This document shows, in pieces, positions 3,394 to 60,539 of a stretch of DNA of 64,000 nucleotides (the first letter of the stretch is position 1; each line of letters opens with the position of its first letter). The notes below the pieces were generated by a model. That model saw only the letters and a list, made by a program, of their open reading frames with translations. It did not search any database and had not been told where the DNA came from. This stretch comes from Lineus longissimus (Eukaryota; Nemertea; Pilidiophora; Heteronemertea; Lineidae). The stretch covers positions 13,022,001-13,086,000 of the forward strand of contig NC_088321.1 in assembly GCF_910592395.1 (NCBI RefSeq), given 5' to 3'. Position numbers and translations under genes: made by a program.

Positions 3394-3700
3394 AATCTTA
3401 TAATAATTGAAGAAGTAAATATCACCAAAGATGATGGAAGAGTCATTCACTTTGTCAACCCTAAAGTTCAGGCTTCGTTATCTGCCAATACCTTCTCTAT
3501 CAATGGACAGTCTGAAACTAAACAAATCACAGAAATGATCCCCGGCATAATAAGTCAACTCGGAACAGAGGGCCTGACTCATTTACAGAAATTAGCTGAA
3601 AAATTTTTACCAACTGGCCAGGAGTAAGTGGTGGCACAAAAACTTCCACAGATGATATAGATGAAGACGATGAGTCTCCCCTGCTTGAACATGGAGTGGG
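3394..3700 (+). pseudogene. BTF3/NAC-beta fragment, copy 3 (longest frame)
   Basis: This is the best-preserved of the four. The codon that is TAG in the other copies is CAG here, so the frame runs unbroken from [17 protein letters not shown] through [27 protein letters not shown] and [16 protein letters not shown] to a stop after PTGQE at 3627. The acidic C-terminal tail (TSTDDIDEDDES) follows only in a shifted frame, and the amino-terminal third of the protein is missing. A frame reaching back to 3307 adds 29 residues with no BTF3 similarity. It is still most likely non-functional, but it could represent the ancestral state of the repeat before the TAG mutation was spread by homogenisation. 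Confidence 0.85.
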
Positions 3701-12499: not shown

Positions 12500-15400
12500 A
12501 CTCCCACCATGATCTTCTTATTATGATGCTCTTGCTAACCCCAACCATGACCCTCCCTTTTCATTTTCTATAGCTAGCCCCAACCATGACCCTTCCTTCC
12601 TTCTCATATACTACAGCTCACTCCCACCATGAACTTTTATTATGATGCTCTTGCTTACCCCAACCAGTACCCATCCATTTCATGCTATAGCTAACCCCGA
12701 CCATGACCCTTCCTTCCTTCTCATATGCCACAGCTCACTCCCAACTATGACCTTTTATTATGATGCTCTTGCTAACCCCAACCATGACCCTCCCTTTTCA
12801 TTTTCTATAGCTAGCCCCAACCATGACCCTTCCTTTCTTCTCATATACTACAGCTCACTCCCACCATGAACTTTTATTATGATGCTCTTGCTAACCCCAA
12901 CCAGTACCCATCCATTTCATGCTATAGCTAACCCCGATCATGACACTTCCTTCCTTCTCATATGCCACAGCTCACTCCCAACTATGACCTTTTATTATGA
13001 TGCTCTTGCTAACCCCAACCAGTACCCATCCATTTCATGCTATAGCTAACCCCGACAATAACCCTTCATTCCTTATCATATACTACAGCTCACTCCCACC
13101 ATGAACTTTTATTAAGATGCTCTTGCTAACCCCAACCAGTACCCATCCATTTCATACTATAGCTAACCACAACCATGACCCTTCCTTCCTTCTCATATGC
13201 CACAGCTCACTCCCAACTATGACCTTTTATTATGATGCTCTTGCTAACCCCAACCAGTACCCATTCATTTCATGCTATAGCTAACCCCAACCATGACCCT
13301 TCCTGCCTTCTTATGTACTACAGCTCACTCCCACCATGATCTTTTATAATGATGCTCTTGCTAACCCCAACCAGTACCCATCCGTTTCATGCTATAACTA
13401 ACCCCAACCATGACCCTTCCTTCCTTATCATATACTACAGCTCACTCCCACCATGACCTTTTATTATGATGCTCTTGCTAATCCCAACCATGACCCTCCC
13501 TTCTCAAATTCTATAGCTAACCCCAACCATGACCCTTCCTGCCTTCTTATATACTACAGTTCACTCCCACCATGATCTTTTATTATGATGCTCTTGCTAA
13601 CCCCAACCAGTACCCATCCATTTCATGCTATAGCTAACCCCGACCATGACCCTTCGTTCCTTATCATATACTACATCTCACTCCCACCATGACCTTTTAT
13701 TATGATGCTCTTGCTAACCCCAACCATGACCCTCCCTTCTCATTTTCTATAGCTAACCCCAACCATGACCCTTCCTTCCTTATCATATACTACAGCTCAC
13801 TCCCACAATGATCTTTTATTATGATGCTCTTGCTAACCCCAACCATGACCCTCCCTTCTAATTTTCTATAGCTAACCCCAACCATGACCCTTCCTTCCTT
13901 CTCATATGCCACAGCTCACTCCCACCATGACCTTTTATTATGATGCTCTTGCTAACCCCAACCAGTACCCATCCATTTCATGCTATAGCTAACCCCAACC
14001 ATGACCCTTCCTTCCTTATCATATACTACAGCTTACTCCCACGATGATCTTTTATTATGATGCTCTTGCTAACCCCAACCATGACCCTCCCTTCTAATTT
14101 TCTATAGCTAACCCCAACCATGACCCTTCCTTCCTTATCATATACTACAGCTCACTCCCACCATGATCTTCTTATTATGATGCTCTTGCTAACCCCAACC
14201 ATGACCCTCCCTTTTCATTTTCTATAGCTAGCCCCAACCATGACCCTTCCTTCCTTCTCATATACTACAGCTCACTCCCACCATGAACTTTTATTATGAT
14301 GCTCTTGCTAACCCCAACCAGTACCCATCCATTTCATGCTATAGCTAACCCCGACCATGACCCTTCCTTCCTTCTCATATGCCACAGCTCACTCCCAACT
14401 ATGACCTTTTATTATGATGCTCTTGCTAACCCCAACCATGACCCTCCCTTTTCATTTTCTATAGCTAGCCCCAACCATGACAATTCCTTTCTTCTCATAT
14501 ACTACAGCTCACTCCCTCCATGATCTTTTATTATGATGCTCTTGCTAACCCCAACCAGTACCCATCCATTTCATGCTATAGCTAACCCCAACCATGGCCC
14601 TTCCTTCCTCATCATATACTACAGCTCACTCCCACCGTGACCTTTTATTATGATGCTCTTGCTAACCCCAACCATGACCCTCCCTTCTAATTTTCTACAG
14701 CTAACCCCAACCATGACCCTTCCTTCCTTATCATATACTACAGCTCACTCCCACCATGACCTTTTATTATGATGCTCTTGCTAACCCCAACCATGACCCT
14801 CCCTTCTAATTTTCTACAGCTAACCCCAACCATGACCCTTCCTTCCTTATCATATACTACAGCTCACTCCCACCATGACCTTTTATTATGATGCTCTTGC
14901 TAACCCCAACCATGACCCTCCCTTCTAATTTTCTATAGCTAACCCCAACCATGACCCTTCGTTCCTTATCATATACTACAGCTCACTCCCACCATGATCT
15001 TCTTATTATGATGCTCTTGCTAACCCCAACCATGACCCTCCCTTTTCATTTTCTATAGCTAGCCCCAACCATGACCCTTCCTTCCTTCTCATATACTACA
15101 GCTCACTCCCACCATGAACTTTTATTATGATGCTCTTGCTAACCCCAACCAGTACCCATCCATTTCATGCTATAGCTAACCCCGACCATGACCCTTCCTT
15201 CCTTCTCATATGCCACAGCTCACTCCCAACTATGACCTTTTATTATGATGCTCTTGCTAACCCCAACCATGACCCTCCCTTTTCATTTTCTATAGCTAGC
15301 CCCAACCATGACCCTTCCTTCCTTCTCATATACTACAGCTCACTCCCACCATGAACTTTTATTATGATGCTCTTGCTAACCCCAACCAGTACCCATCCAT

Positions 15401-16495
15401 TTCATGCTATAGCTAACCCCGACCATGACACTTCCTTCCTTCTCATATGCCACAGCTCACTCCCAACTATGACCTTTTATTATGATGCTCTTGCTAACCC
15501 CAACCAGTACCCATCCATTTCATGCTATAGCTAACCCCGACCATAACCCTTCCTTCCTTATCATATACTACAGCTCACTCCCACCATGACCTTTTATTAT
15601 GATGCTCTTGCTAACCCCAACCAGTACCCATCCATTTCATGCTATAGCTAACCACAACCATGACCCTTCCTTCCTTCTCATATGCCACAGCTCACTCCCA
15701 ACTATGACCTTTTATTATGATGCTCTTGCTAACCCCAACCAGTACCCATTCATTTCATGCTATAGCTAACCCCAACCATGACCCTTCCTGCCTTCTTATA
15801 TACTACAGCTCACTCCCACCATGATCTTTTATAATGATGCTCTTGCTAACCCCAACCAGTACCCATCCGTTTCATGCTATAACTAACCCCAACCATGACC
15901 CTTCCTTCCTTATCATATACTACAGCTCACTCCCACCATGACCTTTTATTATGATGCTCTTGCTAATCCCAACCATGACCCTCCCTTCTCAAATTCTATA
16001 GCTAACCCCAACCATGACCCTTCCTGCCTTCTTATATACTACAGCTCACTCCCACCATGATCTTTTATTATGATGCTCTTGCTAACCCCAACCAGTACCC
16101 ATCCATTTCATGCTATAGCTAACCCCGACCATGACCCTTCCTTCCTTATCATATACTACATCTCACTCCCACCATGACCTTTTATTATGATGCTCTTGCT
16201 AACCCCAACCATGACCCTCCCTTCTCATTTTCTATAGCTAACCCCAACCATGACCCTTCCTTCCTTATCATATACTACAGCTCACTCCCACAATGATCTT
16301 TTATTATGATGCTCTTGCTAACCCCAACCATGACCCTCCCTTCTAATTTTCTATAGCTAACCCCAACCATGACCCTTCCTTCCTTCTCATATGCCACAGC
16401 TCACTCCCACCATGACCTTTTATTATGATGCTCTTGCTAACCCCAACCAGTACCCATCCATTTCATGCTATAGCTAACCCCAACCATGACCCTTC
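12500..16495 (+). repeat. Higher-order repeat, same 2485-bp period (second pair)
   Basis: A different set of private variants repeats with the same 2485-bp step: CATGATCTTC at 12508 and 14993, and GCTAATCCC at about 13477 and 15962. Alignment breaks at about 14010/16495, where one copy has the TTCCTGCCTT variant instead. A shorter jump of 1067 bp (about 9 dimers) links 11176 to 12243 and 11441 to 12508, so this part also contains a smaller nested duplication. Confidence 0.87.
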
Positions 16496-19310
16496 CTGCC
16501 TTCTTATGTACTACAGCTCACTCCCACCATGATCTTTTATAATGATGCTCTTGCTAACCCCAACCAGTACCCATCCCATTATAGCTAACCCCAACCATGA
16601 CCCTTCCTTCCTTATCATATACTACAGCTCACTCCCACCATGACCTTTTATTATGATGCTCTTGCTAACCCCAACCATGACCCTCCCTTCTAATTTTCTA
16701 TAGCTAACCCCAACCATGACCCTTCCTTCCTTCTCATATGCCACAGCTCACTCCCACCATGACCTTTTATTATGATGCTCTTGCTAACCCCAACCAGTAC
16801 CCATCCGTTTCATGCTATAGCTAACCCCAACCATGACCCTTCCTTCCTTATCATATACTACAGCTTACTCCCACGATGTTCTTTTATTATGATGCTCTTG
16901 CTAACCCCAACCATGACCCTCCCTTCTCAAATTCTATAGCTAACCCCAACCATGACCCTTCCTTCCTCATCATATACTACAGCTCACTCCCACCATGATC
17001 TTCTTATTATGATGCTCTTGCTAACCCCAACCATGACCCTCCCTTCTCATTTTCTACAGCTAACCCCAACCATGACCCTTCCTTCCTTATCATATACTAC
17101 AGCTCACTCCCACCATGATCTTCTTATTATGATGCTCTTGCTAACCCCAACCATGACCCTCCCTTCTCATTTTCTATAGCTAGCCCCAACCATGACCCTT
17201 CCTTCCTTCTTATATACTACAGCTCACTCCCACCATGACCTTTTATTATGATGCTCTTGCTAACCCCAACCATGACCCTCCCTTCTCAATTTCTATAGCT
17301 AACCCCAACCATGACCCTTCCTGCCTTCTTATATACTACAGCTCACTCCCACCATGAACTTTTATTATGATGCTCTTGCTAACCCCAACCAGTATCCATC
17401 CATTTCATGCTATAGCTAACCACAACCATGACCCTTCCTTCCTTCTCATATGCCACAGCTCACTCCCAACTATGACCTTTTATTATGATGCTCTTGCTAA
17501 CCCCAACCAGTACCCATCCATTTCATGCTATAGCTAACCCCAACCATGACCCTTCCTGCCTTCTTATGTACTACAGCTCACTCCCACCATGATCTTTTAT
17601 AATGATGCTCTTGCTAACCCCAACCAGTACCCATCCGTTTCATGCTATAGCTAACCCCAACCATGACCCTTCCTGCCTTCTTATATACTACAGCTCACTC
17701 CCACCATGATCTTTTATTATGATGCTCTTGCTAACCCCAACCATGACCCTTCCTTCTAATTTTCTATAGCTAACCCCAACCATGACCCTTCCTGCCTTCT
17801 TATATACTACAGCTCACTCCCACAATGATCTTTTATTATGATGCTATTGCTAACCCCAACCATGACCCTCCCTTCTCATTTTCTATAGCTAACCCCAACC
17901 ATGACCCTTCCTTCCTTCTTATATACTGCAGCTCACTCCCACCATGACCTTTTATTATGATGCTATTGCTAACCCCAACCATGACCCTCCCTTCTCATTT
18001 TCTATAGCTAACCCCAACCATGACCCTTCCTTCCTTCTTATATACTACAGCTCACTCCCACCATGACCTTTTATTATGATGCTATTGATAACCCCAACCA
18101 TGACCCACCCTTCTCATTTTCTATAGCTAACCCCAACCATGACCCTTCCTTCCTTCTTATATACTACAGCTCACTCCCACCATGACCTTTTATTATGATG
18201 CTATTGCTAACCCCAACCATGACCCTCCCTTCTCATTTTCTATATCTAACCCCAACCATGACCCTTCCTTCCTTCTCATATGCCACAGCTCCCTCCCACC
18301 ATGACCTTTTATTATAATGCTTTTGCTAACCCCAACCAGTACCCATCCATTTCATGCTATAGCTAACCGCAACCATGACCCTTCCTGCCTTCTTATATAC
18401 TACAGCTCACTCCCACCATGACCTTTTATTATAATGCTCTTGCTAACCCCAACCAGTACCTATCCTTTTCATGCTATAGCTAACCCCAACCATGACCCTT
18501 CCTGCCTTCTTATATACTACAGCTCACTCCCACCATGACCTTTTATTATGATGCTATTGCTAACCCCAACCATGACCCTCCCTTCCTTCTCATATGCCAC
18601 AGCTCCCTCCCACCATGACCTTTTATTATAATGCTCTTGCTAACCCCAACCAGTACCCATCCATTTCATGCTATAGCTAACCGCAACCATGACCCTTCCT
18701 GCCTTCTTATATACTACAGCTCATTCCCACCATGATCTTTTATTATGATGCTCTTGCTAACCCCAACCAGTACCCATCCGTTTCTTGCTATAGCTCACCC
18801 CAACCATGACCCTTCCTGCCTTCTTATATACTACAGCTCACTCCCAACATGATCTTTTATTATGATGCTCTTGCTAACCCCGACCATGACCCTTCCTTCC
18901 TTCTCATATACTACAGCTAACCCCAACCATGACCCTCCCTTCTCATTTGCTATAGCTAACCCCGACCATGACCCTTCCTTCCTTCTCATAAACTACAGTT
19001 CACTCCAACCATGGCCTTTTATTATGATGCTTTTGCTAACCCCAACCATGACCCTCCCTTCTCATTTGCTATAGCTAACCCCAACCATGGCCCTTCCTTC
19101 CTTCTCATATGCCACAGCTCACTCCAACCATGACCTTTTATTATGTTGCTATTGCTAACCCCAACCATGACCCTTCCTTCCTTCTCATATGCCACAGCTC
19201 ACTCCCACCATGACCTTTTATTATGAAGCTATTGCTAACCCCAACCATTACCCATCCATTTCATGCTTTAGCTAACCCCAATCATGACCCTTCCCTTCAA
19301 GCTATTGCTA

Positions 19311-19870
19311 ACCCCGACCGCGACCCTTCCCTCTCATGTGCTAGACCTAACCCCAACCATTATCCATCCTTTTCATGCTATAGCTAACCCCAACCACGAC
19401 CCTTCCTTTTTATGCTAATGCTAACCACAACCATGGCCTTTGATTATAGTGCTATTGCTAACCCTTGCCATCATCTAGTGCTATTGCTAAACAAACTGAT
19501 GACCCTTACTTTTCAGGCTATTGCTAACCCCAACCATAACCCTTCCTCCCTTCTCATGTGCTATAGCTAACCCCAACTCATGACCTTTGATTATGATATT
19601 ATAACTAACTCCAACACTGACCCTTCCTTTTATGCTATTGCTAACCCCAACCCTGACCCTTCCTTTTCATGCTAATGCTAACATCAACCATGACCTTTGA
19701 TTATAATGCTATCGCTAAACCCTAACCATTACCCTTCCTCTAGTTCTACAGCTAACCAAATTGGTGACCTTTCTTTTTCACGCTATTGCTAACCCCAACC
19801 CTGACCTTTGATTATGATATTATAACTTACCCCAACACTGACCCTTCCTTTCACTCTTTTGCTAACCCCA
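19311..19870 (+). repeat. Degenerate satellite edge
   Basis: GCTAACCCCAACC cores persist but spacing is irregular and private words appear, such as CTAACCAAATTGGTGACC and TTGATTATGATATTATAAC. A block of about 200 bp (about 19672-19875) recurs at about 20442-20645, measured as GCTAACCAAA at 19751 and 20521, a step of 770 bp. The two copies bracket the 37-bp array. Confidence 0.8.
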
Positions 19871-20445
19871 ACCCTGACCCTTCCTTTTCATGCTATTGCT
19901 AACCCCAACCCTGACCCTTCCTTTTATGCTCTTGCTAACCCCAACCCTGACCCTTCCTTTTCATGCTATTGCTAACCCCAACCCTGACCCTTCCTTTTCA
20001 TGCTATTGCTAACCCCAACCCTGACCCTTCCTTTTATGCTATTGCTAACCCCAACCCTGACCCTTCCTTTTCATGCTATTGCTAACCCCAACCCTGACCC
20101 TTCCTTTTCATGCTATTGCTAACCCCAACCCTGACCCTTCCTTTTCATGCTCTTGCTAACCCCAACCCTGACCCTTCCTTTTCATGCTATTGCTAACCCC
20201 AACCCTGACCCTTCCTTTTATGCTATTGCTAACCCCAACCCTGACCCTTCCTTTTCATGCTATTGCTAACCCCAACCCTGACCCTTCCTTTTATGCTATT
20301 GCTAACCCCAACCCTGACCCTTCCTTTTATGCTATTGCTAACCCCAACCCTGACCCTTCCTTTTCATGCTATTGCTAACCCCAACCCTGACCCTTCCTTT
20401 TATGCTATTGCTAACCCCAACCCTGACCCTTCCTTTTCATGCTAA
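19871..20445 (+). repeat. 37/35-bp tandem repeat, ~16 copies
   Basis: The unit is TGCTATTGCTAACCCCAACC followed by CTGACCCTTCCTTTTCA (37 bp), with a 35-bp variant lacking two bases before ATGCT. Sequence is nearly invariant between copies, far cleaner than the edge on either side, so this sub-array expanded recently. Open frames of 60-64 codons through it are repeat artefacts. Confidence 0.93.
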
Positions 20446-20689
20446 TGCTAACCTCAACCATGACCTTTGATTATAATGCTATTGCTAAACCCTAACCATT
20501 ACCCTTCCTCTAGTTCTACAGCTAACCAAATTGGTGACCTTTCTTTTTCACGCTATTGCTAACCCCAACCCTGACCTTTGATTATGATATTATAACTTAC
20601 CCCAACACTGACCCTTCCTTTCACTCTTTTGCTAACCCTTACTTTTCATGCTATTGCTAACCTCAAACATGTCATTTCATTATAATGCT

Positions 20690-47852: not shown

Positions 47853-47922
47853 ATGGGCAACACTTCATCAGTGACTCCATTCAGGAAAGCTAAACTGCTC
47901 CACGAGTTTTACACATTCTACG
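47853..47922 (+). CDS. Alternative first exon A: MGN-start, EF-hand-type helix
   Basis: Encodes MGNTSSVTP and then FRKAKLLHEFYTFY, ending at TAC-G with donor GTAAGT, so the intron is phase 1. The start has A at -3 and G at +4. MGNTSSV fits the N-myristoylation rule (Gly2, small residue at 3, Ser at 6, no Pro at 7), so the product should be membrane-anchored once the initiator Met is removed. The helix matches the family consensus (Phe, basic pair, Lys-Leu-Leu, His-Glu-Phe, Phe-Tyr). Known SCP/calexcitin-type EF-hand proteins begin with a comparable helix (LxxFxxxKI..xFxxFxD). The split codon starts with G, compatible with the Asp that opens the first calcium loop. It is the shortest and most upstream member, 5.4 kb from exon B. 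Family identity is inference; relatedness to the other seven exons is direct. Confidence 0.8.
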
Positions 47923-48018
47923 GTAAGTAATTTTTATACGATTGCATCTTTTTTATTTGTTTATGCCTGAGAAGAAAACGGATTACCTTCTTAGTTTCAA
48001 GGCTTAAAAATAATATTT

Positions 48019-48235
48019 GCCTATGGGTTGACCATACATATAGGTACCAACATTTTGAGTAGAACTTGAAATCCTAGAGCAATTGAACTTCCTCAAAATA
48101 AAGTTAATAACAATTTTGTTTTCATATTTGGAGGCTGTTCTCTGGAAAACAAAGAACGGACTTCCGCACTTGACATTGGCATTCACTTTGTTTTGAAAGA
48201 GATTTAATTTCTTTAGGGTTTTATACTATAGCGAA
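48019..48235. mobile_element. MITE family 2, copy 1 (in the intron after exon A)
   Basis: The left end has ATGGGTTGACCATA and AGAACTTGAAATCCT; the right side has CATTGGCATTCACTTTG and a mirrored TTTAGGGTTTTA. The core (GTTCTCTGGAAAACAAAGAA) occurs inverted in the copy at 62142-62370. A third, larger relative is at 52589-52975. Confidence 0.65.
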
Positions 48236-48672
48236 ATGGATGTGTCTATGGTCTACTCTTAGCGGAATGGGTGAATAGCTAGAAGTCTGAAACCCAATTA
48301 ATAAAAAAAATAAAACTTTTGTTTGCTAACTTATACCAAGTATCAATTTGGGCTCCGTAAACAATGTTGAAGGTATTTCAGGTTCACAAATCTTCCTAAC
48401 TATGAGAAACAAAGATTTTTTGGGTGCAAGGAATCAGCAAACCTGTTGACCTGAATAAGGGTCATTGCTACATGTAGGGCAAGCTAGCATTTTGAAGAAA
48501 AAAATCACCTATAGTTTATGAGTAAATGGTGATTTTATTAACAGATTTTTGCAATTTCTTCCATGGCAAAACTGTCTGTCTTTGCTGTGAGTTTTTTGCC
48601 CCCACCTTACACTACCGAAAATGCTAATAGGCCTAATTAGCTAAAGTCATGTAATATGAATTACATGTCATT

Positions 48673-49591
48673 TCACCAAGCTCTTACATCACTGTTTCTG
48701 GCTATGCTGGCTGCTAAATCATTTAGGTAAAGGGCGAAAAGTGTTGGAGAAAGACAGTCGCCTTGTCTTACCCCACATGATGTCTTAAAACTGTCAGTAT
48801 AATCACCATTCATTCTCTCACGCGCAACCGTATTCGAGTACATCGATATTGTCGATTTCAGGTATTTTCCTCTGATGCCTTTACAGCGGAGTTTGTTAAT
48901 CGGATACATTCTATCAACCATATCGAACGCTTTTGAGAAGTCAATAAATCCTACGTGGATAGACTTTTTCAGACTTTTCTATTTCTCACAACAGTAGTTA
49001 AACTGTATATTATATATATATATATATACTTTATTTCATATAAGGCCTCCGGCCCGTACAAAAATTACATATATTAAACAATCAAAATACAAACATAGCG
49101 GACATACACTGACTATAGTACATGTGGTAATATAAACTTCTCGCTTTTTTCCTTAGCTTTGAATAGAAAGTTTGAAACATTTCTAATGGTCAAAGTGGAT
49201 TTGGAATTCATTGCGTTTATAAAGGATGCTATATGGTCCTCGCAAATTCTGTCTTTTCGAAAACCATTCTCTTCATCTACAAGCAAGTCATTGTTATCGA
49301 TAAAGGCCATCAACCTGTTATTCAGCACTGCACTGTACATCTCTCTCATATGGTGGAATTCAGACTTATTCCTCGAAAGCTTAACGGTTCCGTTCTGTTT
49401 TTATCCGGTTTATGGAACGGGTTGATTATACTTTCGTTCCACATAGATGGTATCTTCCCGTGTTCAAAAACAGTGCTGTAGGACAATGGAAATTCAGGCC
49501 GAGACAATAGACCGTGTAATTGGCCTAGGCCTGAATTCTTCGAAAACTGCGAGGGAAGGGAAGAACGTTGTGTATGCTTATCATGTATCAA
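48673..49591 (-). mobile_element. LINE reverse transcriptase fragment, interrupted
   Basis: Minus-strand frames give, in order, NPFHKPDKNR, LSFRGISLNS, NGFRKDRICEDHI, then IDFSKAFDMVDR (RT motif A with its catalytic Asp) and GVRQGDCLSPTLFALYLNDL (motif B). This is the core of a non-LTR retrotransposon polymerase. The FADD motif C, the endonuclease and the C-terminus are missing, and frames shift between pieces. About 200 bp of foreign sequence (about 48998-49195) separates the two halves. It lies antisense to the exon cluster, between exons A and B, and is certainly inactive. Confidence 0.88.
48998..49195 (-). mobile_element. Nested LINE/SINE 3' end inserted in the RT fragment
   Basis: On the minus strand this reads a short open piece (TIRNVSNFLFKAKEKSEKF), then stops, then TTTTTGTACGGGCCGGAGGC, CTTATATGAAATAAAG and an alternating TA run. 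Such a GC-rich word followed by AATAAA and a simple repeat is the typical end of a LINE/SINE transcript. It splits RT motifs that should be contiguous, so it inserted later. Exact boundaries are uncertain. Confidence 0.6.
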
Positions 49592-50715
49592 GCATTTGGA
49601 TCCTTACTTTTTACATTCTTATTCTAAGTAGCTATTCTTCCTATCACAGTTACAATGAAGAATAATCGAAGTAAAACTGACACAGGCACTACGCCGACCT
49701 CACTGAACTGTCATATTGTGATCACAAATAGTAATGTTACACAACCCAGGCTAGCCAGTGTCATAGGTGAGCGACTTAGTTGACATCGTGAAAGAACTAT
49801 ATAATATATTGGCTGATAGTGGGAACTGGACGGTAGCAATATATAGGTCAATGTGGGGCAGTCGGGCCAAGCAAAGAAAAGCCAAGAATTTGAAAAATGT
49901 GGGTATTACGCACTAATTTCGCCCATTTGATGGATAATCTAGTGTTGTGCACCACTATCTTATAGTAAATCTGATCTGGTCACATTTCAAAATTCAACTT
50001 AGTACGTTTGGTCTGTCGATATTCTGAAAAACACTTTGTGAACCGTAGCCACCTGTTCATGCAGTCACGACGATAGACTCTATTGAATAATTGCATTTAG
50101 ATGTGCTCTAAAGCGCAATCTAAAATGCAGATGTTATAATTCCCTAACAGTCACTATGAATAATTAATTGTATATCGCTAATGATGGCTGCAACCCGGGA
50201 TTTGCTTTCCTGACAAACATTTATCAGCAAATTGCCAAGCAAAAGGTCCCGTTTTATAATATTAGCCTACATGTATTCTTCTGCACTCAGAGCTCATAAC
50301 ATGTTTCTCTGTTTCGTATTACATGTGCAATATTGCTAAGATTCTTGAAAGGTTCTTAACGGTAGTTAAGCCTCTTGACTTTACTAAGGAAAAACGATTT
50401 AGGTCAACAAAATCTTGCTAACATACCCCAAACGAAACCAAATAAGACATTAACCCTTTCAGTTTAAGGATTGACAGTTTAAAAAAGATTAAGACTGCTC
50501 CAGTCGAACTTAACTGTGAGGAGGTATTTACTGCAGCTTGATGTGCTGTATACATGTATATGACATCATGGTTCTGACACTTTCAATGAAGTGCTAATAT
50601 GTCAGTCTTTTGGAGGTGAGGTTCGCCCATCAAAGGGCCTATTCTCTCAAACCAAGCATTCTACAAGACTAAAAATGGGTTGAAAAAGAATTATTTTATC
50701 CTCCTCGTTCAATGG
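49592..50715. other. Unassigned, intron-like sequence
   Basis: AT-rich with no domain, no first-exon relative and no repeat recognised. Confidence 0.4.
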
Positions 50716-50819
50716 CGTCAACGCTAACGAACGCCTATCGTATTGTATGACCTCCTGATAACGAGGTCTAACAGTTAGGCGTTCACGTGGACGTTTCGGG
50801 GGCTTTGCGAGAAATCCCT
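50716..50819. mobile_element. Hairpin MITE family 1, copy 3 (decayed left arm)
   Basis: The right arm (GCGTTCACGTGGACGTTTCG then GGGGCTTTGCGAGAAATCCC) matches copies at 31017 and 42108. The left arm is shortened and diverged (GCGTCAACGCTAACGAACGC). Confidence 0.65.
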
Positions 50820-50864
50820 ATTATCTGATCAGCTGCGCTTGATGATAATCTGTTTATATTTCAG

Positions 50865-51092
50865 CCCACAATCAATGTGAGATCAAAAACACTGATTATT
50901 TACATTGTGCCATCACATAACTACCAGGACATCAACTATGACAATGAGCTGACATGCGGGCTAGATGTTATCATAAAAGCTGGTTTTCCATTGGAAACAC
51001 GTACTGCATACATGGGCACTAGCGAGTATGTTACCCCGAGCCCAGGCCTGCTACTACTCGTACACTTGCCCCTCAATATACTTCCAAAATAA
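50865..51092 (+). CDS. Candidate 3'-terminal exon of unknown gene
   Basis: A strong acceptor (CTGTTTATATTTCAG ending at 50864) is followed by 75 open codons to a TAA at 51090-51092. The peptide contains TLIIYIVPSHNYQDINYD, ELTCGLDVIIKAG and EYVTPSPGLLLLVHLPLN. I recognise no family. Curiously, a minus-strand frame 150-450 bp downstream (51140-51433) reads a vaguely similar AGTPTYRAAYVGK motif against AGFPLETRTAYMGT here. It lies between first exons A and B, but its fixed frame and stop do not suggest that it belongs to that gene. Could be a chance frame. Confidence 0.3.
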   Translation, partial: PTINVRSKTLIIYIVPSHNYQDINYDNELTCGLDVIIKAGFPLETRTAYMGTSEYVTPSPGLLLLVHLPLNILPK

Positions 51093-52588
51093 TACCCTCT
51101 CTTCTTCCACCCCTCCCTACCGCTAGTCATATCCGGCCCTTACCGTAACCCTGAAGCAAAAGGGCCTTTGTATCGTGCAGTAGTTTTCCACAAGTATCTT
51201 TTCTTCCTATTTAAAAAAAAAACTACGAATATGGCCAACAATTCATGTAAATTTACCAACGAGCACCAACTTGTATTTTGTGTTATGCACACATTTCCCG
51301 GGCACTTTCCAACGTAGGCTGCTCGGTAAGTTGGAGTGCCTGCCTCGAATACAAAATATAGCATTAAGATTTCCCGGTCAGCTTGGTAACTGATTCCCCC
51401 GAGTGTACATATACAGAGTAACTGAAAATTCAAAAAATGCTTCTTGTCATAAACTGCAGTCTCGAGAATTTTGTAGACATTTCGTAGATGGCATTGACAA
51501 AACCCTTAAAATCATATCGGTGTACAGTACAGTGGCTTGCGTGTTGCTCTCCTTTTAAAGTGTCATTCGTCCGGTTAGAATTCTGAAAAAAGAAACAGGT
51601 TATAAATGACCAAATGCATAGTAAAACAAATCTCCTGCCATGGTGACGTGTACAATGTTAATCAGGTATTACGTGTGAGTTTAGTTAATCCTTCATGTCA
51701 GATCATGCAACCACGACCTTCACGATACACCGCCCCGGTACTCCACCCACAGAACTCATTGTGACACTGTGCTCCGAGATCTGGAGTTCACCTGGCGACC
51801 AGTAACACCCGATTCCTGCTCGGGGAAGTGTCGAAAAAGTGAACGTATGTCTCGCAATAGAAAATGCAGGTCATGCGAAGGAAAGACACCCGGTTGATCT
51901 CCGCTTCAAGATGGAAAAATTAGCATTAATATAATCTAAACTTGATAAAATGGAAGATACTTAAAATCAAATGTAGGAAATATTGTGTTGTGCCACCGAT
52001 ACTCCGGCCGACCTCATAGCTGTTCCAAAAAATAAATCGAGCACATCAGCACTGTACCACACACAATGCCCACAGGAGCACCATACCAATGCCAGAATAA
52101 ACCTCACCTGCAGCCTGGGATTGTGTCTACATTATTTTGAGCTCCCCTTTAGTGTGGTATTAATTCATTAAACAACAGTCGGTAAACAATTTTTAATGCG
52201 TATAATTTGAACTTTCCATGTCAACTGACATATGGCAGGTGCCAATGATTATTGTGAAAATTATTCAATTTGCCAACGATTTTACAGATTTTACGTATCA
52301 GATGCAAATGCACACACGCTAGCCCTGTACATGCGATTACACGTATGTTGTATTACATACTCTAGTTTCACGGCGGTCTAAGATCGGTAGATAGTATGTG
52401 CATTATCTTTCAATGCCATCAAGCATAGTTTAATCTATGCTTGAAGCCATTCAGTAGTTTCATTCGGCCTGTGTTAAGAATTTGCCATTGCTGGCTTTAG
52501 CCTGACCGACCCCCACAAAACGTGTTTCAGTGGAGTCGATATAATCATACTCTAACCTCGTTCCGATTTATGCAAGGGTTGTTCAGTT
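51093..52588. other. Unassigned, intron-like sequence
   Basis: Nothing recognised apart from the weak minus frame at 51140-51433 noted above. Confidence 0.35.
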
Positions 52589-52975
52589 GGCTAGAACCTG
52601 AAATCCTGAAAGAACTCTTTGATACAAAGTGAATTTCTAGGGTGGGGATGTGTTATCTGTATTGTTTTCGATGTCCAAGGTTAATATGGGTTGTCAATTT
52701 ATCTTGGAGGAGTTCTGATCACTTTAGGGTTTCAGGGTCTTGCCAAAATGGTGGTACCCATTGTCAACCCCAAAGACGCGATTGCTCGTCGTCAATACAT
52801 TTTTGTGGTGAGTTGCATCAGCATGAAATCGTCGTGTTGGAATAGCTTGATAGATTTATCAATATTTTCTAGCCTCACAGGTCTTTAATGGGCATTCACT
52901 TCATTTTGAAGGCGTTCTAATTGCATTAGGTTTCAGGTTCTAGCCAAAATGGGTTGCCTTTGGTCAAACCTTAAC
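52589..52975. mobile_element. MITE family 2, copy 2 (compound)
   Basis: The left end GGCTAGAACCTGAAATCCTG is mirrored at the right by TTAGGTTTCAGGTTCTAGCC. A second right-end-like piece (TTAGGGTTTCAGGGTCTTGC) sits inside at about 52727, so the copy is a nested or duplicated form. It continues into CAAAATGG, as the other copies do. Confidence 0.7.
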
Positions 52976-53357
52976 CTTTGTACCACAATTGTCTACGATA
53001 CGGTTGACCAGTCATCGACGCAAGCCACTGACACTGAATCTGCACTACAACCCTCGTGTACATGATGGTGCATCAATACAAAACCGTTGACTTCCATAAA
53101 TTAACTGCAATAAAACAGAGAGTCCATTTATTTCCAGCCAAACATAACGTAATTGCACACATTGCCATCTGTGGCCATTATTGTTTTGAATGATATTACG
53201 GAGAACCTGCAATCTACTGCAATAATCAACCCCATACCGGTGTGGTCGAATGTAATATCGTGCAGATAGAGATTTTGCATATCAACGGGACATTTGCAAG
53301 GGACGCCTGTCACCATAGTCAGTCATCGGAAGGATTTTCTTGTCTCTTTGAGGAAAG

Positions 53358-53433
53358 ATGGGCAACATCACCAGCTTCGAATTGTCCCAGTTCAGGAGGA
53401 ATAAACTGCTCGACGAGTTTCATATATTTTACG
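53358..53433 (+). CDS. Alternative first exon B: MGN-start, EF-hand-type helix
   Basis: Encodes MGNITSFELSQ followed by FRRNKLLDEFHIFY, ending TAC-G before donor GTAAGA; phase 1. Start context is AAG-ATG-G. MGNITSF meets the N-myristoylation rule (Ser at 6). LSQFRRNKLL closely matches exon F (LSQFRRAKIL), and the His of HEF is Asp here. The donor region and the intron just behind it take part in a ~187-bp local duplication (53440-53822) that has also copied a donor-like CTACAGTAAGAC at about 53799. No EF-hand loop exon is found in the 1.4 kb before exon C. Confidence 0.82.
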
Positions 53434-53439
53434 GTAAGA

Positions 53440-53822
53440 CAATATTACCTACAGGGTGAGCCATAAAAATGTGTTAAGCGACATTTTCCATTTACGCAAT
53501 ATCTTCTGTGTTCCGAAAATGAAAAAAGTGACTGAGCTCGTAGTTAATCACACATATGTATATGATGGCCTGCTTCACTAATAATGTAGGGCATTCGGCT
53601 TGTATTCTATCAGTATTCTACTATGATTGCCTGCAGGCTGAGCCTTTAAAAGTGTGTTTAGCCACTTTCGCGATTGCTTGGTCATGTTTTATGGTACAGG
53701 ATTGTGAAACCATCACCAGCCTTAGCCTCAGCTAATAACACGCATGATACCATGCTTCAATAAGAATGTTGGCATTCCGCTTGCAATCTACCAGTATTCT
53801 ACAGTAAGACATCTTTGCCTAC
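53440..53822 (+). repeat. Local tandem repeat of ~187 bp behind exon B
   Basis: CCTACAGGGTGAGCCATAAA at 53449 is echoed by CCTGCAGGCTGAGCCTTTAA at 53630 and again after the LINE insertion by CAGGGTTAGCCATAGAATAA at 54207. Their distal parts (GGCATTCGGCTTGTATTCTA versus GGCATTCCGCTTGCAATCTA) also match. The GGGTGAGCCATAAAA word resembles mariner-type ends. Confidence 0.7.
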
Positions 53823-54206
53823 ATGGAAAACAACATCAACGCGTTTGCAACATCATGCTGCAGGATCATGTTAAATATCAAGCGGACCGACCATGTATCA
53901 AATACAACAGTGAACTCACTGGTGAAGTGCACCCCCCTAATACATTGTGTGCACCTCCGCCAATTGACGTTCCTGGGACACATTTTACGGATGCCAAGCA
54001 ATGAGCCAGCTAGATTGTATGCACTATACCAACCGACGCAGGGCAGGAGACGCCCTGGCCGCCAGCGAATGCCTTATCTGACGTATATCAAATCTCTCAT
54101 AGGACCGCTGGAACCAAAACAAATTGAGGAATTGGCCCAGGAAAGGGTTGGTTGGAGGAAACTTGTGACCGCCTGCTGCGCAGTCGATCGATGATGATGA
54201 TGATGA
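53822..54206 (+). mobile_element. LINE 3' fragment with TGA-repeat tail
   Basis: A 123-codon frame (53823-54194) reads FATSCCRIMLNIKRTDHVSN, CVHLRQLTFLGHILRMP, GRRRPGRQR and WRKLVTACCAVDR. This is the C-terminal part of a non-LTR retrotransposon polyprotein downstream of the RT (the LGHILRM ... GRRRPGRQR pattern). The stop codon is the first TGA of a TGATGATGATGATGA run, so the 3' simple-repeat tail supplies the stop. It sits inside the 187-bp repeat, between GCCTACA and CAGGGTTAGCC. 5'-truncated, as is usual for LINE insertions. The frame is intact, so it is a rather young insertion. Confidence 0.85.
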
Positions 54207-54869
54207 CAGGGTTAGCCATAGAATAAAATGTGTCTCTATTAAATAATGCGAGCGATATTTTTGGAGATCCGCATTTTTTCATGAAATGCAATTATACGCT
54301 ATAACGGTATGCAGTTATTAATTATCATGCTTACGAATTTGCTTTAGCATTTGTGGATCTGTCTGCACAGTGGCCGATTTGGAATTTATATCAATTAGGT
54401 ACATGCATATTTAAAATATTCAAATTAAATTTATTCTTTTTATTTTTTACAAATGGCCTAGGCCATTAACTTCAAATTAATTTCACCATGTTTATTTTAC
54501 AGCAAAGTTATTCAAATCCCATTGTGTGCATGATGAATAACTAGCCTCCTCTAAATCGCTGTTGTAGCAGCTTTACTAAATTTGATCCCCTATTAAAAAC
54601 ATCTGTTTCCAAGTGGACACCTGTCAAATTCACTTAGGGCTTGGGTCCAAGCAGAGAAAGGCGGATTTCGTCCTGTTAGGAAGTTTCGTCACTAATTTTC
54701 AAAATATCTTTGTAGCAATCAGTGTATGTAAGATACACTTGTTTGGATAACACGTTTAAATCGATTTCATCCCTTGCGATTTAGGAAGTGGGGACCTCTT
54801 GCTTAGCAACAATAGGCCGATAGCTAAGGATTAAAACCATAAAAGGAATAGTTTTTGTCAGCTTTAAAA
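54207..54869. other. Intergenic/intronic sequence upstream of exon C
   Basis: AT-rich, no coding feature. A CCATAAAAGG word at about 54838 lies 32 bp before the exon C start and might act as a weak TATA-like element. Confidence 0.4.
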
Positions 54870-54948
54870 ATGGGCAACAACTGCAGCAGCTATGAGCTAA
54901 CGCCATTTCGAAGAGTAAAACTTTTGTATGAATTCCGCACCTTCTATG
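54870..54948 (+). CDS. Alternative first exon C: MGNNC start, EF-hand-type helix
   Basis: Encodes MGNNCSSYELTP followed by FRRVKLLYEFRTFY, ending TAT-G before GTAAGA; phase 1. Start context AAA-ATG-G. MGNNCS satisfies the myristoylation rule and adds Cys5, a typical partner site for palmitoylation, so this isoform could be dually lipidated and more firmly membrane-bound than exons A, B or D. EFRTFY is identical to exon D. The 1.7 kb to exon D contains a long hairpin (55401-55561) but no other exon of the family. Confidence 0.83.
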
Positions 54949-55400
54949 GTAAGATTATATTTATTCACTTTTTTCATTTTCTGTTATTTTTTGCAAGCCA
55001 AAATCAAAATGGTTTTCGTCCACCATTGCTGGATGTACGGTCTGATCCAATGATGCATGGTCCCATTTCTGAAGCTCTTCGCGGTTCGAAGGGAATAAAA
55101 GTTACATTTCTTTTGTTTCTGTGAGCAGACGACAGAAAGTGCCTCGCTCGCTTTGACTAAAAATGCCTCATTTTCATGAGATGGTCCCATTCACCTCGAT
55201 CAACCCCTGTAACAATTGTGCGACCAAAACGCATATATACTTATGTTCATGTAGGTAGCTGGAAATTCCCAATTATGACTCGAGATGCACTCATTGTATC
55301 CTCAATAAGCTGGAGTTAGCAACTGATTATCAATTGATACCTGACCGAAGCCAGAAGTCTCCATCTTAAAGATTACAATCATGTACTTTTTTCACCATTA

Positions 55401-55561
55401 TATGAAAATATGGGAACAGGCGGCACTGTGTACAGTTCCTTAAAGCATAGGTACTTTTAAATAGACCTCCAGACTAGACCTCCAGACCATTGGAGGTCTA
55501 TTTAAAAGTATCTATGCTTTGAGGAACTGTACACAGTGCCGCCTGTTCCCATATTTTCATA
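55401..55561. repeat. Near-perfect hairpin, 71-bp arms, 19-bp loop
   Basis: The left arm 55401-55471 (TATGAAAATATGGGAACAGG ... AATAGACCTCCA) and the right arm 55491-55561 are inverse copies with two mismatches. The loop is 19 bp and itself repeats AGACCTCCAGAC. Located between exons C and D. It is either a very young foldback element or a long hairpin RNA locus. Confidence 0.92.
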
Positions 55562-56605
55562 CCTTTTTCTAGCATTAAGTCACTTTGCCTGAAGGAATTA
55601 AGGCCTACCGTATTGCCTAATACGCCGTTTAAATTGTCTTTAAACAAAGCCCGCTCGCACCTTAGCCTAAATTCCGTTGTTTAACTGTCTTATCGAAGGG
55701 TTATGTGGGCAAAAATATTGATGCCATCGACCCCCACGAAACAGCTTGCATGAGTGTCAATAGGCCTAAACCAGCAGTGGTAAAGAAGAGTAAAAAATAT
55801 GCAAACGGAGATACATTGGAGATACAATATGTTTATTTCGTACATCAAATTGTACAGATTTACTGAACTGGTGGATTACATAACTTTGTGCGTGGTGCAA
55901 CGTGAACTAATGCATTTACGTACAGGCCTAGTGGCCTAAATAATGAACTGGTCATGGCACAATGTCCATCTCGGAGGTACATAAGAAAATTATAATTCGG
56001 TCAATTCCCCAAAGTCTCTCATTCTCAAAAAATCTCCAATCTGTTCAGCAATCCTGTGTTGTCCCTATCAATTTCTCTAAACATGTCTCAAGTATTGTGT
56101 ATGTGATCGCTATCCCAATCATATTTGTGAAAAAGCCAACAATGTAATTGACCCTTCGATGATGTAGATTTCAATTTGACTGTAAACAAATCGATATTCT
56201 ACTTTGAATTGCACATCCCTTGTCTATTAGTTTGGACAGATGTTCAATAGCGTAGATTTAAAGGTACGATATTCTCTAGCCAAGAGATATGATTTAACAC
56301 ATTTCTTTATTAATTTGGTATGTACTGTTATCAGTAGCTGACCAAACGATCAAATCTAAGAATCTTGACAAATTTACACAATTGTCCTCAAGTAGTGTCT
56401 ATTCCTAAAAGAATAATAGATGCCTTCCATATTACATTTTACCATCAGCATATTTCTTTAATGTTGCAGTAGGCCTAGACAACGTGTGATATGTGATGCC
56501 TAAGCCTATATTGAACCAGATTGCCATTAACATAGCACATCACTGCACATCTTGATAGTAGCGTATTATTTGGTTTGGTGAAGATAGATTCTGATTTGGA
56601 AGAAA
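55562..56605. other. Sequence upstream of exon D, nothing recognised
   Basis: AT-rich with no coding feature. No TATA element is obvious immediately before exon D (GTATTATTTGG lies about 40 bp upstream). Confidence 0.4.
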
Positions 56606-56690
56606 ATGGGTAACTCACAGGCTAAAGTTACTTTTGGATTAACTAAATTTAGGCGGGCTAAGATACTGCATGAATTCCGCACATTCTATG
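56606..56690 (+). CDS. Alternative first exon D: MGN-start, EF-hand-type helix
   Basis: Encodes MGNSQAKVTFGLTK followed by FRRAKILHEFRTFY, ending TAT-G before GTAAGA; phase 1. Start context AAA-ATG-G. MGNSQAK fits the myristoylation rule through Ala6, and the following Lys adds positive charge as in many myristoyl-switch proteins. The helix is the closest to the family consensus. The frame continues past the donor for ~64 codons by chance; the identical donor position in all relatives argues that splicing occurs here. Confidence 0.84.
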
Positions 56691-57657
56691 GTAAGAAATT
56701 CGCTTTCCTTATGCCTATCTTGCTTCATGTCGCGTATGGTTATATTGGAAATTTGATTGTCAACGTGTATGCCGCAGCGGATGCTTTGGCCGAGTCGATC
56801 AAGTCTCGTTCTTCTTCATTTCTGGTAATTGGTGCCCCGAGTTATCGCCATGATATACTTACTTACCTATCGCCTAGTTGATATGATCCTTGCTCGTTAT
56901 CATAAACTATTTGTTATTGACTATTTGAAATGAATTTCAACGAGTAAGCTTACTTGTTATGTACGTTATCAAATGTACATCGCATCGCTGTATTCATGTA
57001 CAATGTGCTGTGTCGGCATTATTTAGCCAGTTGAGACGCATCTGTTACCATGTGTAGCTATTACATGTAAGAGAGGCGTATTCTACAGATGCTCCTCAAC
57101 CGGTTAAGAGCATCGACACAGTATTTGGGGTAAGCTTACATTTTGAAAATCATACATGTATCAATGGTGTTTCTCCGCGTACGTAAAGTACACTCTTAAA
57201 ATAAAGTTTTTTTGAGCTTCTGAAAATACAGCCAACACTGGTATCCATCCCCAGGAGTTTTTCGGAGAAATGACTAACCCCTTAAGACGTTTGAGTTCGT
57301 ATAAAACCTCGAAGGGTGTTCATTTCCCTGAGAAACCTCTGCGGGGGCTTATTTGTCTCCCCAAAACTCTTGATTTTTAAGAGAGTATATATGAATACAA
57401 ATATGTGAGAGTGGCTGCCATGTGTTGTCGTATCATGCAAACATGCCATTAATCTAATGACAATCGTGTGTGACACATCGACTTGTATCAATGTCGAATC
57501 AACTGTTGCATCCAGTACTATTCATTGTGATGTGTCCATAGTGCATCATGCTCGTAGGCATTCTCACCAGTGAAATGATAACAGTCTGACAACGCGTTAT
57601 CGATCATTATCCGCCTTGCTCCTGTTTGCAAGAAAAGTATCCACTAAAGTAGTTGGA
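56691..57657. other. Sequence between exons D and E, nothing recognised
   Basis: Contains a TGTACATGTA-type palindrome-rich stretch (about 56940-57070) and no EF-hand loop or other exon I can identify. Confidence 0.4.
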
Positions 57658-57759
57658 ATGGGTAATACGCAATCACCTGGCTCCATTTGGAATAGGCCAT
57701 CTTTCGAATTGACTGGGGGCGAGCAAAACTGATGCACGAGTTTAGATTCTTTTGTAAGC
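57658..57759 (+). pseudogene. First exon E, frameshifted relic of the MGN family
   Basis: Begins ATGGGTAATACGCAATCACC (MGNTQSP), continues to SFELT, and then loses the FR pair. One base is missing relative to the family, so the initiating frame stops at TGA about 25 codons in. In the shifted frame the rest of the helix is plain (RAKLMHEFRFF) and runs into a GTAAGC donor. The last exonic G is also missing. Pro at position 7 violates the myristoylation rule that intact members obey. The exon therefore looks dead, and its decay shows which features selection keeps in the others. A base-calling error could explain the shift but not the Pro or the weakened donor. Confidence 0.75.
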
Positions 57760-58352
57760 TACATTTTTTTGTATTTACAGAGTGTAAGGTAAAGTCACGT
57801 GGTACAATTGTAGCCCCGATACAATGGGGCCGAGACTGCATGCTTCTACATCGAGCATATAATTGTCCCATATTGTGGCTCAACATTTTCGCTGTACATG
57901 ATCGAGTGAAAGGACCCGGGATAGAGTGTCTTGGATGCAAAAGATTATGTTATGAGCAGTTAATCTCTGAGTTATCGGCGGCTTTTGCCTATATAAGGAC
58001 AAATTCCTTAATCCGTCACCACAGGCCAGAGACGGGCAGTTTTTCCAGGGCAGGCATTTTAGACTGCTACACCGGTCTTTCCAAAAGTCGAGCAAAAGTA
58101 CCAACATACCTGCCCAATCACTAATAAGCAAAGACCAGATAACATGGCTTACCGGTTCTGATTACTGAAGGGCGCTAGAAAAAGCGAGACTTTCTCACCA
58201 ATAAAAGAACGCGTTTTATCTTCGAATTTGAAATGATTAAAAAAAAAAGACGGTATCTGTTGATATTGTACTTTATGTTATTTACTCAGATGGCTCAGGT
58301 GTGTGCTTTTCCCAATGCTCTGATACTGCCCGAGACAATACGATGGTACAGG
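57760..58352. other. Sequence between exons E and F
   Basis: A 130-codon frame starting within exon E (57732-58124) crosses the donor and has no domain; I treat it as chance. No other exon recognised. Confidence 0.4.
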
Positions 58353-58358
58353 TATAAA
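58353..58358 (+). promoter_or_regulatory. Putative TATA box for exon F
   Basis: GGTATAAATC lies 62 bp before the exon F ATG. The following CAGCACATACTATGCATAC resembles the sequence after the TATA word of exon G (GTATAAATGCCAGTACTATA), so the pair may share a promoter design. Confidence 0.5.
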
Positions 58359-58419
58359 TCAGCACATACTATGCATACTGTGGGGGACAAACATCCTGGG
58401 AGTGTCTCCTTCATTTGAA

Positions 58420-58513
58420 ATGGGAAATACCCAATGCGGAGTTCGAAAACGGGACTTTAAGCTGTCTCAATTCAGGAGGGCGAAAATTCTGAGCGAATTC
58501 CATTCTCTGTTTG
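58420..58513 (+). CDS. Alternative first exon F: MGNTQC start, EF-hand-type helix
   Basis: Encodes MGNTQCGVRKRDFKLSQ followed by FRRAKILSEFHSLF, ending TTT-G before GTGAGA; phase 1. Start context GAA-ATG-G. MGNTQCG passes the myristoylation rule with Cys6, which could also be palmitoylated; the following RKR adds a basic patch that would strengthen binding to acidic membranes. This is the only member with a GTGAG rather than GTAAG donor. A TATA-like word lies 62 bp upstream. Confidence 0.83.
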
Positions 58514-59063
58514 GTGAGAAATTTACCCTTTTTTTGTCAGAATTAACCCATTTCTGGACTTTCTGCGCATTCCTCCATGCTATACGGTTTCTCTCCTTCC
58601 GCTCCACCACATAATGTAAAGTGTGTTAAACCGTTCGTTCAAACAATGTATCATTTGGGATGAAATATTATGCAACTATATAGGAGAAAAAGTACAAGTA
58701 AAATATGCCCTTTTGTATTAATTGAATTACATATGTATTCACATGTAATTACATATTAATTAATTAAAACACACAATATCACTTGTGCATTTTCCTTGTT
58801 TATGTAAATTGAATATAGAGCAGAAAAATTTCGCGTGCAGGACATTTTCGCGAATTTCACGAGTAAGACACGATGGCGTAAATTTTCTGCCGCGAAATTG
58901 TTCTCTTCTACATTTCTTATTTGCATATATTACGAGCCATACGATTGTCTGAATTAAATGACCAATGTGGCAGGGAGTTGTATTCCTAATAAGAATATAA
59001 TCACGTAATACCATATTAGGCACACTTAGAACTTTTATTTAGTGGCCACATACAGTGCAGTAG
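58514..59063. other. Sequence between exons F and G, nothing recognised
   Basis: AT-rich, with a TTACATATTAATTAATTAA-type stretch near 58747. An 87-codon minus frame (58760-59023) has no domain. Confidence 0.4.
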
Positions 59064-59069
59064 TATAAA
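59064..59069 (+). promoter_or_regulatory. Putative TATA box for exon G
   Basis: AGTATAAATGCCAGTACTAT is placed about 106 bp before the exon G ATG and resembles the sequence upstream of exon F. Confidence 0.45.
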
Positions 59070-59169
59070 TGCCAGTACTATAGCTTAATCCTCATAGGCC
59101 TTTTTTTAAGAGCAGTTAAGACTTGCACTAAATGTTTTGACTTGAAGGAATACGTTTAGAGAATTCGTG

Positions 59170-59305
59170 ATGTGTTTTGAAGGAATTTTGCCTTTTAGTA
59201 TCCTTGGTCTCTTTGGAGGGATATTTCGAACGAGGCGAGAGTATGATGCCACATTGTCTGTGTTCAGGAGGCAGAAGCTAATGCACGAGTTTTATAACTT
59301 TATTG
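59170..59305 (+). CDS. First exon G: hydrophobic start instead of MGN
   Basis: The frame gives MCFEGILPFSILGLFGGIF, then RTRREYDATLSV, then FRRQKLMHEFYNFI, ending ATT-G before GTAAGC; phase 1. The helix and donor match the family, but the start does not. In place of Gly2 there is an 18-residue hydrophobic stretch followed by a basic RTRR, which could be a membrane anchor or signal-anchor. Alternatively, TTTTGCCTTTTAG at about 59200 is a fair acceptor, and the conserved part could be an internal exon fed by an upstream MGN exon I have not found. Helix homology is sure; the start is not. Confidence 0.65.
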
Positions 59306-59394
59306 GTAAGCGAACATGCAAGATACCTTTTGTAGAATGCGACCAATTAGACCAGTCAAAAGTTAGAGTTGTTGGTGTGACATTCATCATTATT

Positions 59395-59446
59395 TGTGAC
59401 CCGTCACAGCGAAACCAGGCGCCTGGTTTTGCTGTGACGGGTCACA
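59395..59446. repeat. 52-bp near-perfect palindrome after exon G
   Basis: TGTGACCCGTCACAGCGAAA and CCAGGCG are followed at once by the inverse CGCCTGG, TTTTGCTGTGACGGGTCACA. One mismatch, no loop. It lies 90 bp into the presumed intron. Probably a small MITE; it could form a cruciform. Confidence 0.9.
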
Positions 59447-60379
59447 TTTGTCATTCTCGCTGTACCACAGAATAACGTTGGCCCCACTCAATTTCAAGAG
59501 CAAACTGGGTGGAAAAATTTAAGAGTGTTGATGAAAAGGGACAACTTGGGCATGAGATATGTTAGGATTGTTTTGTTGGTAAAAATGGCCTGCAGCAGGA
59601 CTGTGATCTCTTCGGCCTACATGTCTGTTGATAGTGGTCTAAATGGGCGTGAGTGTGAAGGATAGGGATTTTTTGTGATTTTACTTATGTGTACTTCTAG
59701 TCACATAACGTACAACATCAGGCACCTATGATCAAGTCAGACCAGCTCCACTTTTCTCACTTTTGAGTGGACTACATAGGTACCGTTTTATTCACACTCG
59801 TGGTTTTTCTACCTTTATTTTTTGTCTCATGGCGTCGACTGAAAAATATCGATGACCATGATTTGACAGGCATTAATGACTGGTTATGTGACGCAATAGG
59901 GGTCGACCTTGATAAGGCCCTTCTTTCAAAATCAACATAATGGTAGTCGATCTTATGTACATGTACATGACTTTTCCCATTCACCCATATATGCGGTTTT
60001 GGGAGCTACATGACATACATGTAGTTGGTAATATAAAAGGCCAATTCAGAGAATGGCCAAATTGCATAATCTCACAGGGATAATTTGGGGTCATCTCGAT
60101 TTCGACACATATGTCACATAATTTGTAGCCATGTTTGCTAACATTGCGGAGTGTTGCCGTTCTGTGATGTTTGAGGGTTACATGCAATATTTCATAATTG
60201 GTATCACCAGGGAGAATTTATAGCACGGCCGTGTTAAAAATTCCCTGATATCGTCGACACGTTGGCATCCGGTGACATAATACCAGTGAAAGGTCGGTAT
60301 CGCCAACACGGGTGGTGATTTTTTAAAATACTGTTCAGTTTGTGGCTAGCATTGTAGGGGATTAAAAGTTACCAAGAAA
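59447..60379. other. Sequence between exons G and H, nothing recognised
   Basis: No coding feature with support. TTTTTTAAAATACTG at about 60320 could be a weak TATA-like element for exon H. Confidence 0.4.
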
Positions 60380-60539
60380 ATGGGCAACGCAAAGTCAAGG
60401 GATACAACCGAAAATGGTAACGCAAATTCGAGGGGAAAACCAGTAACGGGCAACGCGAATTCAAGAGATGATCCTAAGTTATTCGCGCTGTCTTCTTTTA
60501 GGAAAGGAAAGCTCATGCACGAATTCCATCATTCATTTG
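60380..60539 (+). CDS. Alternative first exon H: triplicated GNAxSR, EF-hand-type helix
   Basis: Encodes a 39-residue N-terminal region in which GNAKSR, GNANSR and GNANSR recur at residues 2, 14 and 25, then LSS and FRKGKLMHEFHHSF, ending TTT-G before GTAAGA; phase 1. Start context AAA-ATG-G. MGNAKSR fits the myristoylation rule, with Lys and Arg adding charge. The triplication looks like duplication of the lipidation-signal segment itself, lengthening the linker between membrane anchor and EF-hand body. It is the longest MGN exon (53 codons) and the last family member before the window end. No loop exon is seen in the remaining 3.4 kb. Confidence 0.83.

Follow-up and report, generated by a model that had tools for sequence, protein, structure and literature searches.

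Which gene carries a row of short exons that each supply a start codon, a linker and one conserved helix, and where is the rest of the protein encoded? The question is raised by a 64,000-nucleotide stretch of the genome of the nemertean Lineus longissimus (assembly GCF_910592395.1, contig NC_088321.1, positions 13,022,001 to 13,086,000; hereafter the window). The window very probably represents the 5' variable region of an L. longissimus calexcitin gene, in which seven usable alternative first exons, accompanied by one relic, would be spliced to common constant exons.

Eight exons of one plan were identified on the plus strand between positions 47853 and 60539. Each runs from an ATG through a linker and a helix with the pattern F[RK]..K[LI][LM].EF to four further residues, and closes with a lone G ahead of a GT donor. 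Seven exons (E1–E4 and E6–E8) are intact and E5 is a broken relic; the start reads MGN in seven of the eight (E1–E6 and E8), with E7 as the exception. These observations uphold the description in a first-pass annotation of this DNA, which had proposed eight same-strand exons of one architecture, seven with MGN and seven apparently usable. All seven intact exons close with the lone G followed by GTAAG or GTGAG, which forms a phase-1 donor. The exons measure 70–160 bases and each supplies a putative anchor, a linker and a single helix, with linkers of 9, 11, 12, 14, 17, 31, and 39 residues before the helix in E1, E2, E3, E4, E6, E7, and E8, respectively.

In the intact exons the ATG stands at the first coordinate and the residues listed are followed by the lone G. 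E1 (47853..47922) encodes MGNTSSVTPFRKAKLLHEFYTFY and has the donor GTAAGT. E2 (53358..53433) encodes MGNITSFELSQFRRNKLLDEFHIFY, E3 (54870..54948) encodes MGNNCSSYELTPFRRVKLLYEFRTFY with a Cys at residue 5, and E4 (56606..56690) encodes MGNSQAKVTFGLTKFRRAKILHEFRTFY, all three with the donor GTAAGA. E6 (58420..58513) encodes MGNTQCGVRKRDFKLSQFRRAKILSEFHSLF, with a Cys at residue 6 and the donor GTGAGA. E7 (59170..59305; donor GTAAGC) encodes MCFEGILPFSILGLFGGIFRTRREYDATLSVFRRQKLMHEFYNFI and has, in place of MGN, a Cys at residue 2 and a hydrophobic N-terminus. The Met at 59170 is the sole in-frame Met upstream of the E7 helix, giving a product that begins MCFEGILPFSILGLFGG, and the second in-frame Met, at 59281, lies inside the helix. 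E8 (60380..60539; donor GTAAGA) encodes 53 residues that begin with MGNAKSRD and end with FRKGKLMHEFHHSF. Three GNA(K/N)SR repeats (GNAKSR, GNANSR, and GNANSR) were noticed by eye in its long linker. In the relic E5 (57658..57753), the MGN frame hits a stop ahead of the helix, the helix lies in another frame, and the G before the donor GT has been lost.

The helix pattern matched seven times in the window, whereas 300 first-order Markov resamples gave 0.003 matches on average and never more than 1, which rules out a chance origin of the exon motif. A looser helix pattern also gave seven matches (mean 0.6 and maximum 4 in 200 resamples). Mean ungapped identity among the seven intact exons is 0.49–0.61 in 20-base bins from –60 to +20 of the donor and 0.20–0.30 elsewhere within 300 bases of it; the flanks beyond the exons are thus at background likeness. 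No further first exon with the helix pattern was found between 1 and 47 kb. The first-pass annotation had also seen no EF-hand loop exon between the copies, and this was borne out over the whole 64 kb, where three loop patterns gave 0 matches in six frames.

The body to which these exons belong was identified by protein search. A query that concatenated the seven intact exon peptides, with an Asp assumed at the end of each and with E7 shortened, returned one match at E ≤ 10 among 408 candidates (E = 8.6e-11). This protein, 'calexcitin-2-like isoform X2 [Lineus longissimus]' (219 residues; here P0001), shows that public databases already contain a gene model comprising one isoform or more. Compared with the window by tblastn, residues 1–31 of P0001 are identical to the E6 peptide (31/31) and are followed by D32 and then the calexcitin body. 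The lone G therefore opens an Asp codon, in agreement with the earlier suggestion that the split codon encodes the first Asp of a calcium loop. P0001 gave a full match at E6 and matches over the N-terminus at other exons, and none of its matches among the best 60 tblastn rows against the window extends past residue 34, so that the constant exons lie outside the window. Two other calexcitins, P0011 and P0003, gave only weak gapped matches past the N-terminus. Because E6 is joined to a body outside the window, the gene model skips the intact E7 and E8. The joining of a variable exon to a constant body is seen in the gene model for E6 only. The earlier proposal of variable first exons with a shared calcium-binding body outside the window thus stands for E6, and would extend to the other six intact exons.

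The 90% identity cluster of P0001 has six member sequences on one contig, which may be isoforms. The forms predicted from the other six exons would be 90.9–95.3% identical to P0001. Cluster size and predicted identities are together compatible with several isoforms.

In the PDB, P0001 matches squid calexcitin 2ccm (E = 8e-28, residues 14–210). Its best relatives there are calexcitin, juvenile hormone diol kinase and SCP, and the named match of neuronal calcium sensor (NCS) type is GCAP1 (E = 8.8e-4); NCS proteins are hence not its closest sequence relatives in this search. A profile of the seven peptides, again with the assumed terminal Asp, gave juvenile hormone diol kinase at E = 0.009 and calexcitin at 0.035–0.044 in the PDB; Pfam gave no match for the seven exon peptides. 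The structural model of P0001, built on an alignment of 12 relatives, has a mean predicted local distance difference test score of 86.3, with low confidence at residues 1–10. Among known folds, calexcitin chains rank first against the model (template modeling score 0.79/0.92, root-mean-square deviation 2.0). A body of calexcitin/SCP type, as the first-pass annotation had expected from the helix, is thereby confirmed. In the model, helix 17–31 corresponds to the exon-encoded helix and loop 1 begins at residue 32, which would put the splice junction exactly at the border of entering helix and calcium loop in EF-hand 1. Loop 1 of P0001 has I33 T34 Q35 in place of L N K, and loop 2 has N87 E88 in place of D G, at positions conserved to 90% or more among the 12 aligned relatives. 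To judge from these substitutions, calcium loops 1 and 2 of the Lineus body may bind differently.

Several points weigh against the reading of the window as a calexcitin variable region with separately started first exons. P0001 is a database gene model, no transcript was seen, and the constant exons are only presumed to lie beyond 64 kb. If the cluster representative is the longest member, the forms starting with E7 (233 residues) and E8 (241 residues) are not members. The acylation of the N-termini is predicted from a sequence pattern. Upstream of the seven exons, no common k-mer exceeds the random level and a TATA pattern precedes only two; UGT1, a known cluster of variable first exons, is reported to have a conserved upstream motif (PMC1885805), whereas none was found in the Lineus array.

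The lack of a common promoter element and the TATA count of 2/7 also speak for a different arrangement, in which the exons are alternative cassettes that all receive a common leader from upstream, be it from a single promoter with mutually exclusive choice or by trans-splicing. E3, whose acceptor-like site reaches the 90% level of random stretches, would suit such an arrangement as well. Across the seven exons, however, the best acceptor-like pyrimidine fraction upstream is 0.33–0.73 against a random median of 0.6, and acceptor-like sites show no excess, which fits first exons. The start codon that every exon carries moreover stands in a good context, with a purine at –3 in 7/7 and a G at +4 in 6/7. 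An initiator search upstream of the seven exons gave nothing above random. Taken together, we regard the leader-spliced cassettes as rather unlikely.

A second alternative is that only E6, perhaps with one or two other exons, is used and that the remaining copies are decaying like E5. The relic shows that copies do decay, and E6 is the only exon found in a protein with a readable sequence. Yet all seven helices retain frame, start, donor and lone G, and their divergence is constrained. Within the 14-codon helix, comparison of all pairs gives 95, 75, and 175 differences, of 294 each, at codon positions 1, 2, and 3, and the amino-acid differences over the 21 pairs total 122, where the null yields a mean of 201 and a minimum of 184 (1000 runs); the null places the same number of random substitutions and ignores shared ancestry, and both tests assume an independence of the pairs that does not hold. 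None of the 14 third positions in the helix is invariant. A synonymous distance was obtained for just two of the 21 pairs (0.55 and 1.14), the other 19 giving no value, so the case for selection rests on the codon positions and the substitution null. The seven helices are under purifying selection and the P0001 cluster has six members; decay of most copies is accordingly quite improbable. The mostly incomputable synonymous distances suggest that the copies are old. Exon order shows no clear relation to amino-acid distance (Spearman 0.31, p 0.17).

Tandem calexcitin genes of the ordinary kind, every copy having EF-hand exons of its own, do have a parallel in the clam Sinanodonta woodiana, where adjacent-numbered calexcitin products have different bodies (P0011, locus 024807; P0031, locus 024806), but here they can be dismissed, since EF loop patterns are absent from all six frames, the P0001 matches among the best 60 rows end by residue 34, and P0001 links E6 to its body across E7 and E8.

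The calexcitin first-exon reading was further placed in its family context. N-myristoylation follows the pattern G-{EDRKHPFYW}-x-x-[STAGCN]-{P} after the initial Met. As a pattern match alone, this occurs in all six intact MGN exons, E1 included, and is absent from E5 and E7. A Cys lies among the first ten residues in E3 and E6. The best 15-residue mean hydropathy is 1.95 in E7, compared with at most 0.13 in the other intact exons. From a sample of 98 calexcitin-type proteins, the 56 in which the helix was recognized by pattern were scored. MG is present at the start or ahead of the helix in 54/56, and the myristoylation pattern occurs at one of these MG sites in 39/56. The relatives begin with MGN in 24 cases and with MC in nine; all nine MC-starting relatives have an internal MG, and six of them are named molluscs. 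The MG start is therefore an old trait of the family, and what stands out in Lineus is the multiplication of the exon. A lipid-anchor-type MG start is accordingly not peculiar to this locus, a point on which the first-pass annotation needs amending.

E7 begins with MCFE and contains LGLF, resembling the long molluscan N-terminus (MCFE in P0002, P0006, and P0027). MCFE occurs in 3/9 MC-starting relatives and BLAST-type scores between E7 and the molluscan N-terminus are weak, so we take possible homology of the two as a lead only. On its sequence E7 may also be the oldest type of first exon. Calexcitin clusters listed on one contig each were noticed for Mytilus trossulus P0006 (18 members), Haliotis rufescens P0038 (7 members) and Tubulanus polymorphus P0003 (5 members), the last of which is also named isoform X2. 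These cluster sizes suggest that many calexcitin isoforms exist in other lophotrochozoans too.

Calexcitin is a proposed neuronal calcium sensor that acts on K+ channels and ryanodine receptors (PMC13042319). Squid calexcitin 2ccm and the 'calexcitin-2' proteins of molluscs and arthropods are like the Lineus protein in sequence, in fold, in the helix before loop 1 and, in most, in the MG start. Relatives with readable names have one to several isoforms listed. Unlike the Lineus array, the Haliotis rufescens isoforms P0038 and P0039 have an identical helix and differ only in the upstream extension. An array of eight first exons that each repeat the helix was encountered in Lineus alone, other genomes not having been searched. 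No report of a Lineus calexcitin first-exon array was found in the literature searched, which mostly excludes subscription journals.

A precedent for the general design is found in the KChIP genes (KCNIP1-4), in which alternative 5' exons joined to a common EF-hand core give myristoylated, S-palmitoylated, transmembrane or cytoplasmic forms (PMC3973911). The likeness lies in the differently anchored N-termini on one EF-hand core, and the first-pass statement that no EF-hand locus built this way was known has to be withdrawn to that extent. KChIPs are NCS proteins and belong to an EF-hand family other than calexcitin; the same source describes varied 5' exons rather than tandem copies each with an EF-hand helix. 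The second half of the design is known from UGT1, GCNT2 and protocadherin, where, according to PMC1885805, tandem homologous first exons of one phase are combined with constant exons and undergo birth-and-death evolution. That paper also mentions relic copies in the UGT1 cluster, terms the organization of UGT1, GCNT2 and UGT2A vertebrate-specific, and describes clusters of multiple variable first exons mainly from vertebrates. The Lineus array shares with them tandem homologous exons on the same strand, in the same phase and with their own start codons. The variable exons of UGT1 and protocadherin are large ones that code for recognition domains, in contrast to the small anchor, linker and helix exons of Lineus. 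By analogy, the Lineus array would unite the KChIP and UGT1-type designs in a third gene family.

If the window is such a calexcitin variable region, each first exon would encode a complete N-terminus together with the entering helix of EF-hand 1, and a single phase-1 junction would join it to constant exons common to all and located beyond 64 kb, the first residue of calcium loop 1 being where these exons would begin. Transcription would start separately for each exon. The six MGN exons would yield N-myristoylated forms of varied make-up (E3 and E6 with a Cys close by, E4 and E6 with a basic linker, and E8 with the long repeat linker), and E7 would yield a form with Cys2 and a hydrophobic N-terminus, possibly palmitoylated. 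Promoter choice would then decide where in the cell one calcium sensor sits, and the swapped helix would perhaps tune EF-hand 1. We infer the use of the six exons other than E6, the separate promoters, the acylation and the functional difference. That the gene works as an addressing system, in which each of seven promoters sets both anchor and entering helix of EF-hand 1 and hence place and calcium response, is a tentative proposal that we hold to be possible though short of probable.

Should all seven first exons be used, one gene would give rise to a sensor family varying in anchor and in first EF-hand helix, and a junction between helix 1 and loop 1 would make the exchange of first exons clean. 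The effect of N-terminal anchors and of the entering helix on location and calcium response could then be tested within one gene, and a comparison would be possible with the KChIPs, where a similar design has arisen in another EF-hand family.

An Rfam scan of the window gave nothing at gathering thresholds. On the minus strand at 48673–48978, between E1 and E2, there is a fragment of a reverse transcriptase (PF00078, E = 1.2e-10), and a retroelement has therefore entered that gap. A C-rich array of tandem repeats, about 14 kb long, occupies 6172–20638, with periods of approximately 37, 119, 355, and 474 bases and a strong GC skew of about –0.65 from 8 to 20 kb. Upstream of this satellite, an exon-like frame at 3292–3627 on the plus strand encodes a NAC domain (PF01849, E = 1.2e-13), which we presume to belong to BTF3.

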